Shown here piece after piece: positions 52,972 to 55,414 of a stretch of DNA of 64,000 bases. Below the pieces are notes generated by a model, which did not search any database, was not told the DNA's origin, and saw nothing but the letters and a program-made list of their open reading frames with translations. The translations under genes and the position numbers were made by a program. This stretch comes from Nitrososphaera sp. (GTDB taxonomy: Archaea; Thermoproteota; Nitrososphaeria; Nitrososphaerales; Nitrososphaeraceae). The stretch lies in assembly GCA_039938515.1 (NCBI GenBank), contig JBDUUL010000005.1, positions 1 through 64,000 on the forward strand, given 5' to 3'. Within the stretch, counting starts at the first letter, position 1, and each line of letters starts with the position of its first letter.

Positions 52972-53207
52972 TGCATAACTCCGGCCATTGATTGGCGGAA
53001 GAGCGGAGATCACGCGAGAGCATCGCAGAACATGCGTGTAAAGTATGATTCCGGCAAACTGGGAGTCATGAAATAAGATGTTGAATTCCGCATTCCGCTC
53101 CTAGCAACATTCTTGGAATTTGCTTGAGTGAAGGCTTGTACAGTGTCTCAGTTCAATAGGATTTTTGCTTGCTGTCTTTAAAATTAGTTAGTATAGCCTT
53201 AGTGGAC

Positions 53208-54812
53208 ATGCTAGTTAGTGACGACCCAAAGATTTTAACTACAGGAATCATACAGCTCGCAGAGATGGAATTTCGTCTCGGCAGGACTCACCGGAATTTG
53301 TCGGTTCCTGCGATGGTTGAAACAATTATTGCGAGGAAGGAAGGAATCCTGTCCTCCTCTGGCGCCCTGTCAGTTAATACAGGCAGGTTCACCGGAAGGT
53401 CTCCCGATGACAAGTACATTGTTGACGATGAAACCACTCATGACATTGTTGACTGGGGCAAGGTCAACAAGCCTATTTCCGAAGAGAATTTCGAAAAGAT
53501 CCTTAAGCGCATGCGTGCCCACGCGGAGGGCGGCGAGTTTTATGTCTTTGACGGATTTGTAGGTGCGGACCCTTCCAGCCGGTTGCCGATCCGGGTAATC
53601 AATAACCGTGCTTGGCACAACCTGTTTGCGCGGCAGCTCTTTATCCGGCCTTCGAGTGAGGAGCTGGGGCACTTTAGGCCCGAGTTTACGCTGCTTTCAT
53701 GCGACGACTTTGCCGCGGACCCCAAGACGGAGGGCACAAGAACTGAGACATTCATCATAATAAACTTCAAAAAGAAAATCGTTCTCATAGGCTCGACGTC
53801 CTACGCAGGAGAGATAAAGAAGGCAATGTTCTCCATCATGAACTTTCTGCTTCCAAGAAAGGGCACATTTCCAATGCACTGCTCGGCCAACGTCGGATCA
53901 GATGGGCACACGGCCCTGTTTTTCGGCCTTTCCGGCACAGGCAAGACCACGCTTTCGGCAGACCCCCAGAGAAGGCTTGTCGGGGACGACGAGCATGGAT
54001 GGTCAGACCACGGCATTTTCAACTTTGAAGGAGGCTGCTACGCCAAGTGCATAAACCTGAGCAAGGAAAAGGAGCCGCAAATCTGGAATGCCATCCGGTT
54101 TGGCGCGGTGATGGAAAACGTCATCGTCAACCCGGAAACCCGCGAGCCGGATTTTGATGACGGCCAGAGGACAGAAAATACAAGGGTAGCCTATCCTCTT
54201 GACTATATCGATGGCTCGGTGATACCAAGCGTCGCGGGCCACCCGAAGGTGATTGTTTTTCTGACGGCCGACGCGTTTGGCGTAATGCCCCCGATTTCCA
54301 AATTGAGTCGCGAGGGAGCAATGTACCACTTTATGTCAGGCTATACGAGCAAGCTGGCAGGCACCGAGCGCGGAATTACAGAGCCGCGCGAGACGTTCTC
54401 TCATTGTTTCGGGGCGCCTTTCATGCCCCTTCATGCGCAGGATTACGCCAAGATGCTTGGAAAAAAGATTGCCGGGCACTCTACTCGAGTTTACCTCATA
54501 AACACTGGCTGGTCAGGTGGTCCATACGGGGTCGGGAAGAGGATGAACCTGTCCTATACGAGGGCAATGGTTACAGCGGCTCTGTCTGGTGAAATCGACA
54601 AGGCACCATTGAGGCACCACGAGATCTTTAACCTTGACATGCCAACGTTCTGCCCCGGCGTGCCTTCAGACGTTTTGGACCCGCGAAACACTTGGTCCGA
54701 GAAGGAGAGATACGACTCGTCTGCAAGAAGGCTGGCCGGACTCTTCATAAAGAACTTTGAAAAGTTTGGCAGCGTGCAGAAGGAAATCGTTCAGGCCGGT
54801 CCGCGGGGATAA
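53208..54812 (+). CDS. pckA: Phosphoenolpyruvate carboxykinase (ATP)
   Basis: From the ATG at 53208 this is a 534-residue ATP-type PEPCK, converting oxaloacetate and ATP to PEP and CO2 in gluconeogenesis. The kinase P-loop GLSGTGKT is at 240-247, followed by the metal-binding DDEHGWSD. Substrate loop [18 protein letters not shown] and the C-terminal [15 protein letters not shown] are intact. TTTAAAATTAG (53178-53188) lies 25 bp upstream of 53208; the frame open to 53169 is not needed. The use of ATP rather than GTP follows from the family. Confidence 0.95.
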
Positions 54813-54818
54813 GATGAT

Positions 54819-54962
54819 TGGTAGCCCGGAGCAGATTCGAACTGCTGTCTCCAGGTATCTTCTCTAAAAGATCCAGAGCCTGGAATCCCTAGCCCTCAAC
54901 CATGGAGATTGGCCACTAGAATCGGCGCCTGAAACCTTTTAATTTTCAGGCTCGACCGGGCT
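54819..54962 (-). tRNA. tRNA-Gln (CTG) interrupted by three introns
   Basis: On the minus strand the acceptor 5' strand AGCCCGG (54962-54956) pairs perfectly with CCGGGCT, followed by A and an encoded CCA (54821-54819). The T-arm is AGCAG-TTCGAAT-CTGCT. The anticodon stem CCAGG/CCTGG encloses CTCTGG-A, anticodon CTG. Removing about 32 nt (54950-54919), 20 nt (54905-54886) and 16 nt (54872-54857) leaves exactly 76 nt with a D-arm typical of archaeal tRNA-Gln (AGTGGCCAA loop). Introns 1 and 3 form internal hairpins (CCTGAAA/TTTCAGG; ATCTT/AAGAT). Intron 3 is at the canonical 37/38 position; 1 and 2 split the D-arm. Exact junctions may shift by a base or two. Confidence 0.82.
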
Positions 54963-55000
54963 AACACGAGCTACGCATGACGAAACTAAGATACCGATAT

Positions 55001-55414
55001 TTAACGCTTGGTATTGATTTCCCTAATCACTTGGCCGTATTCCAGCAGCGCTCGCTTGCGCATGTAGGGGATCAGCCTATAATGGATAGAGTAGATGTTC
55101 TTGTTTCTCGAAATAATTCCTTTTATCAAAAGCGACACAAAACCTCCTGCCACTTTGGACGGCATTATTCCGCTCTGCCTGCAGTAAGCATTTCGTTTCT
55201 GGTGGTATTCGTCCAAGCTGAAGTAAGACCTGTTCAGGTCGAGAACCAGCGGCCATACAACGTATTCCCACACCATCCTCCTATTCTCTGTCGACGACGC
55301 GTGCTTGCCCTTCCTCTCCCGAGGCTTTCGGCCGTGGGCCGGGGAGCTCTTGTGCGCAGGGTCAAACCCCTCTGCGAACCGCCCGTCTTGCCTAGTCTGC
55401 GGGCTTTGGCGCAA
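55001..55414 (-). CDS. Basic protein of unknown function
   Basis: A 137-residue protein from TTG 55414. The first 45 residues are Arg/Lys/Ser-rich and probably disordered. The rest is helical (MVWEYVVWPLVLDLNRSYFS, MPSKVAGGFVSLLIKGIISR) and could be a winged-helix-like domain. GTTTAAATC at 55434-55442 on the minus strand lies about 24 bp upstream and overlaps the TATA element of the divergent gene. ATG 55276 is an alternative start. Confidence 0.55.
   Translation of the reverse strand: MRQSPQTRQDGRFAEGFDPAHKSSPAHGRKPRERKGKHASSTENRRMVWEYVVWPLVLDLNRSYFSLDEYHQKRNAYCRQSGIMPSKVAGGFVSLLIKGIISRNKNIYSIHYRLIPYMRKRALLEYGQVIREINTKR

Follow-up and report, generated by a model that had tools for sequence, protein, structure and literature searches.

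The tRNA-Gln(CTG) gene found in the window (by which the whole stretch of 64,000 nucleotides analysed is meant) raises the question of how a tRNA precursor could stay folded while it is spliced at an intron whose splice motif would draw on the acceptor stem itself. The explanation that we consider likely as a whole is that this is the sole Gln(CTG) gene found, that it is interrupted by three introns with bulge-helix-bulge (BHB) motifs, and that the acceptor 5' strand is present a second time in its leader, where this copy serves as a stand-in acceptor strand. The leader copy, which was missed by the sequence-only reading that preceded this analysis, is the unusual feature of the locus.

The gene covers 144 nt of the minus strand (54962-54819), starts with AGCCCGG and ends with CCGGGCTACCA. 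Its length, perfectly paired acceptor stem (AGCCCGG/CCGGGCT), encoded CCA and CTG anticodon were all confirmed in the sequence as first described, and removal of 32 + 20 + 16 nt leaves a product of 76 nt including CCA, AGCCCGGTCGTCTAGTGGCCAAGGATTCCAGGCTCTGGACCTGGAGACAGCAGTTCGAATCTGCTCCGGGCTACCA, so that the number and the lengths of the introns had been read correctly. The placing of two introns in the D-arm and one at 37/38 is likewise borne out by relatives and by BHB motifs at corrected junctions (Table 1); the first two introns had been put 2-3 bases off, intron 1 at 54950-54919 rather than 54952-54921 and intron 2 at 54905-54886 rather than 54908-54889. Intron 1 is assigned to 10/11 because same-genus relatives without it read AGCCCGGTCGTCTAGTGGCCAA, and it follows that the D-stem is GTCT/GGAT and that intron 2 lies at 21/22. 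The D-stem GAG/CTT previously proposed, with its supposedly compensating change, was mistaken and left one T-T mismatch in the product, whereas in the corrected 76-nt product all pairs form in a cloverleaf template with a 4-bp D-stem and zero mismatches. The true contrast in the D-stem is a swap of the 12-23 pair, with GTC/GAT in Gln(CTG) versus GTG/CAT in Gln(TTG).

Table 1. Features of the tRNA-Gln(CTG) locus, in window positions.
Feature	Positions	Strand	Sequence	Remarks
TATA-like box	54997..55004	-	TTAAATAT	23-30 nt upstream of leader copy; putative promoter element
Leader copy of acceptor 5' strand	54967..54974	-	GTAGCTCG	kept in relatives with intron 1, lost or decayed without it
Exon 1, tRNA positions 1-10	54953..54962	-	AGCCCGG TC G	C5G6G7U8 forms the central helix of intron 1
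Intron 1, 32 nt, site 10/11	54921..54952	-	AGCCTGAAAATTAAAAGGTTTCAGGCGCCGAT	precisely absent in same-genus relatives
Exon 2, tRNA positions 11-21	54909..54920	-	TCTAGTGGCCAA	
Intron 2, 20 nt, site 21/22	54889..54908	-	TCTCCATGGTTGAGGGCTAG	from alignment of relatives and BHB pattern by eye
Exon 3, tRNA positions 22-37	54873..54888	-	GGATTCCAGGCTCTGG	anticodon CTG
Intron 3, 16 nt, canonical site 37/38	54857..54872	-	ATCTTTTAGAGAAGAT	relaxed BHB; hairpin by eye
Exon 4, tRNA positions 38-76	54819..54856	-		remainder of anticodon arm, variable loop, T-arm, 3' acceptor, A73, CCA
3' acceptor strand	54829-54823	-	CCGGGCT	
Encoded CCA	54821-54819	-	CCA	

The spliced 76-nt product is called as tRNA-Gln(ctg) by ARAGORN, and the unspliced locus gives neither an ARAGORN call nor an Rfam match (E ≤ 1). 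The latter result would suit a decayed or unspliced pseudogene, a reading to which we give almost no credence: no second Gln(CTG) gene, intact copies elsewhere having been a point to check, was found in the tRNA census of this 99.84% complete genome (2.56 Mb in 24 contigs), the exons are conserved across the class, and splice motifs are kept in all three introns. Searching with the window locus, syntenic homologues with the same exons were found in most related genomes, far beyond chance, and the protein of the upstream ORF (55001-55414, minus strand), used as query, turned up in this neighbourhood in records from Nitrososphaera and other thaumarchaea. The TATA-like box overlaps the stop codon of this ORF, and similar AAATAT boxes stand at the equivalent place in relatives. 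At the other end, a complete ORF resembling an ATP-type PEP carboxykinase (53169-54812) reaches to within 6 nt of the tRNA 3' end, in convergent orientation. All exons are collinear within the 144 nt and in normal order, and the gene is therefore neither a split nor a permuted tRNA.

The BHB of intron 1 has the bulges CG^A and AU^U (^ marking a junction), a central helix CGGU/GCCG in which exon nucleotides C5G6G7U8 pair with intron GCCG, and the inner helix GCCUGAAA/UUUCAGGC. Across 74 distinct introns at 10/11, the 4-bp central helix is kept in 70, and the inner helix has a mean of 4.3 bp with its own partner versus 1.7 bp with swapped partners. By eye, intron 2 has the bulges AA^U and AG^G, the central helix GGCC/GGCU and the inner helix CUC/GAG. 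L054 and L060 have the second D-arm intron of this tRNA at 24/25 and not at 21/22; introns at both sites contain GGGCTAG, which suggests a splice-site shift in one intron lineage. This GGGCTAG, at the end of intron 2 (54889-54895), resembles the 3' acceptor strand, is able in folding models to pair with the acceptor 5' strand, and is conserved also in genes without intron 1. The genome has two PF01974 splicing endonuclease genes (frames of 181 and 211 aa), a number consistent with the alpha2beta2 enzyme, which tolerates such non-canonical introns (PMC4090602).

Multiple introns, as many as three, are known from archaeal tRNA genes, among them non-canonical ones in thaumarchaea (PMC8450103, PMC4033280, PMC3293823), and a three-intron gene is by itself therefore nothing new in kind. 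The examples from Thermoproteales, Thaumarchaeota and Caldiarchaeum are alike in that one gene may hold as many as three introns, in that these sit in the D-arm and at 37/38, and in their relaxed BHB motifs, and their known hosts have a heteromeric splicing endonuclease (PMC8450103, PMC3293823, PMC4033280). The three-intron architecture is a shared family state, with intron 1 lost in part of the genus, so that the layout is no oddity of this genome.

The leader copy GTAGCTCG can pair over 8 bp (one of them G-U) with CGGGCTAC at tRNA positions 67-74, that is, with the 3' acceptor strand, the discriminator and the first C of CCA. Relatives with intron 1 retain the copy at the same place, a few of them as a variant, whereas same-genus relatives without intron 1 do not. 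The Gln(TTG) gene of the same genome, on contig 1, has a 10/11 intron too (AGCCCGGTGG^AGGAACGTATTTTCCGCCGAA^TGTAG) together with a leader copy; in general, Gln(TTG) genes with this intron have GCCCGG immediately before AGCCCGG, and intronless Gln(TTG) genes lack it. In an earlier set, all 56 distinct intron-bearing Gln genes have a leader helix of 6 bp or more. A third case, tRNA-Ser(TGA), was reached via partial Rfam matches in genome G025: its intron lies at 8/9, with the central helix C3G4G5G6, and in at least three families the leader copies the gene's own acceptor strand, while intronless Ser(TGA) relatives are without the copy, except that L347 has one and that L346, from the same genus as L347, matches in part.

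Among the other tRNAs of genome G000 no conserved leader copy was found. The leader match of Ala(CGC) is not conserved in relatives and was put down to chance, and the apparent one of Glu(TTC) (L002, L150) is no copy but the real acceptor exon: this gene has a D-loop intron, and ARAGORN sets the 5' end inside it and misses the true acceptor, GCTCCGA. The same genome holds five tRNA-Phe(GAA)-like genes with differing anticodon-loop introns (L026, L028, L141, L142 and L143, called Gln or Ile by ARAGORN), an unusual number for an archaeal tRNA. Most of the partial Rfam matches in G010, G018 and G025 proved to be introns of the D-loop or T-arm that lack a leader copy. Pairing of the leader with exon 2 as an outer BHB helix was also rejected, as it comes to only 2-3 bp and is not conserved.

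For the association of intron and copy, the 10/11 site of the two tRNA-Gln isoacceptors and the 8/9 site of tRNA-Ser(TGA) were considered together, and extra Gln(TTG) genes of the class were added. A duplex between leader and 3' strand of -10 kcal/mol or better, a threshold set after the data were seen, was present in 14/14 CTG, 64/65 TTG and 10/10 Ser(TGA) genes with the intron and in 5/20, 0/26 and 1/11 intronless ones, respectively, counted after hand corrections in which L356 and L357 were taken as intronless and L353, whose 3' strand was unparsed, was dropped. When genus and gene are combined into units, the leader copy is found in 43 of the 44 units with the intron versus 3 of the 37 without (Fisher p = 3e-18, uncorrected for phylogeny), and all five within-genus contrasts agree (genus 1 for CTG; genera 17, 28 and 33 for TTG; genus 20 for Ser). 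Exceptions include L055 and L347, which keep the copy without the intron, L038, L051 and L052 from the genus of the window gene, which are intronless with 6-bp remnants, and the intron-bearing L224, whose copy is just 5 bp. In genus g11 (L055, L346, L347), Gln(CTG) and Ser(TGA) genes without the acceptor-proximal intron have full or partial copies, possibly as a result of recent intron losses. Archaeal tRNA genes with an acceptor-adjacent intron almost always carry an upstream copy of the acceptor 5' strand.

The Gln copy pattern occurs in 42 of 398 genomes of the phylum, with only a handful of matches for the reversed control, and the pattern loci that were read, from families f28, f39, f46, f59, f68 and f73, are tRNA-Gln genes with 10/11 introns. 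Because these loci were selected by the copy itself, they show breadth and not association. Three further matches (L264, L281 and L282) have no tRNA downstream and were discarded as chance, and at L271 the copy is present with a different intron. It could be argued that this is an ordinary multi-intron gene, of a sort already known in thaumarchaea (PMC8450103), and that the leader match is a promoter or initiation element or has another role, since it lies near the expected transcription start, about 25 nt below the TATA-like box. This is highly improbable, as the sequence of the copy is family-specific and matches each tRNA's own acceptor, and intronless relatives are without it.

The copy also changes together with the acceptor. 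The acceptor of genome G037 is AGCCCCG, and both of its Gln genes (L053 and L189) have the leader AGCCCCG and the 3' strand CGGGGCT, with an intron central strand of GCGG instead of GCCG that matches the acceptor change. Ser leader copies track the Ser acceptor, which is GCCGGGA or GCCGGGG, both acceptor and leader being GCCGGGG in L348, and in L050 the CTG copy has its wobble pair at another position. In pairing controls computed before the hand corrections of gene calls, Gln leaders gave -14.1 with their own 3' strand versus -8.9 with that of Ser, and Ser leaders -15.1 with their own versus -10.4 with that of Gln. The copy could alternatively be a functionless trace of a tandem duplication of the gene 5' end by which the intron was created; in TTG genes the copy almost adjoins the gene (GCCCGGA^AGCCCGG), and L055 and L347 retain a copy without the intron. 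However, many genera share the paired core although the leader around it differs, and the copy follows acceptor changes (L053, L189, L348), shifts its wobble pair (L050) and decays upon intron loss. Since a neutral relic of 6-8 nt is not expected to show such core conservation, covariation and decay, these count against this origin, which we regard as improbable.

The native acceptor stem and the splice-competent fold exclude each other, because the BHB at 10/11 or 8/9 uses acceptor nucleotides. The leader copy probably stands in for the acceptor strand until splicing, with the BHB using nucleotides 5-8 (3-6 in Ser). The archaeal splicing endonuclease would remove the three BHB introns, and intron 1 could fold into its BHB only when its 3' end is paired to acceptor nucleotides 5-8. 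Such pairing would open the acceptor stem, which would be the reason for the copy in the leader. In the precursor this copy is predicted to take the 3' acceptor strand as its partner and so to keep the tRNA body together. Once intron 1 is cut and the exons are joined, the true 5' strand would take over the 3' strand, and RNase P would then remove the leader with the copy, splicing thus preceding 5' trimming. The order known from Methanopyrus kandleri, in which 5' and 3' trimming come before intron removal (PMC3695527), is the opposite of the one predicted here.

When Gln(TTG) is modelled with its leader, the central BHB helix has a predicted probability of 0.61, as against 0.23 for shuffled leaders and 0.06 if the leader is absent, and native acceptor pairing falls from 0.94 without the leader to 0.24 with it. 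When the two acceptor states are forced, the stand-in is favoured in 24 of 31 unspliced TTG precursors and in only 9 once intron 1 is spliced. The Ser models go in the same direction on average, and the energy comparison of the two states is clear for TTG only. For the window gene itself (L031), BHB probability is 0.015 with the leader versus 0.056 with shuffled leaders, and there is no gain; CTG full precursors show a small leader gain, and none is seen across 20 CTG genes once introns 2 and 3 are taken out. The mechanism thus has good support from comparison, is backed by the energy models for TTG, and extends to the window gene only by analogy.

On average, native acceptor pairing in the CTG models is lower with the leader. 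This fall, with no clear rise in BHB probability, is consistent with a different emphasis, namely that the copy mainly hides the true 5' site from RNase P until splicing restores the stem and has little role in the BHB. As a main function this is possible, though doubtful. CTG copy pairing extends through A73 and C74, and bacterial RNase P is reported to be inhibited by pairing of the 5' leader with the 3' RCCA (PMC9433436); against this stands the rise in BHB probability brought by the copy in the TTG and Ser models, and the RNase P effect alone leaves unexplained why the copy is restricted to introns whose BHB consumes acceptor nucleotides. The RNase P role and the BHB stand-in role are compatible.

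Several known systems resemble the stand-in arrangement in part. In split tRNAs (Nanoarchaeum, Caldivirga; PMC3218864, PMC4090602), pairing of leader or trailer sequence outside the mature tRNA likewise holds a splice-competent precursor together, but the pairing partner there is the trailer of another transcript, whereas here there is one transcript and the partner of the leader would be the mature 3' acceptor strand, outside the BHB. In permuted tRNAs (Thermofilum, Cyanidioschyzon; PMC3218864, PMC4090602), the pre-tRNA termini are processed via a BHB, while the gene order here is collinear. The bacterial pairing of leader and RCCA is alike in that it joins a 5' leader to the 3' end of the tRNA and would bear on 5' processing; there the leader extends an intact acceptor stem (PMC9433436), whereas here the leader would replace the 5' strand and is tied to an intron. 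No description of a leader copy tied to 8/9 or 10/11 introns was found in the open literature searched, and priority is not established.

For the phylum, we lean towards a rule by which a leader stand-in is required wherever the BHB of an intron takes up the acceptor 5' strand, so that splicing must precede RNase P and an RNA strand exchange completes maturation. If this is true, introns near the acceptor constrain sequence outside the tRNA, in a leader usually deemed disposable, and the gain and loss of introns would be coupled to leader evolution. The leader copy also offers a sequence signature for tRNA genes that are missed by standard scanners. Finally, tRNA maturation in these archaea would include a programmed strand exchange.
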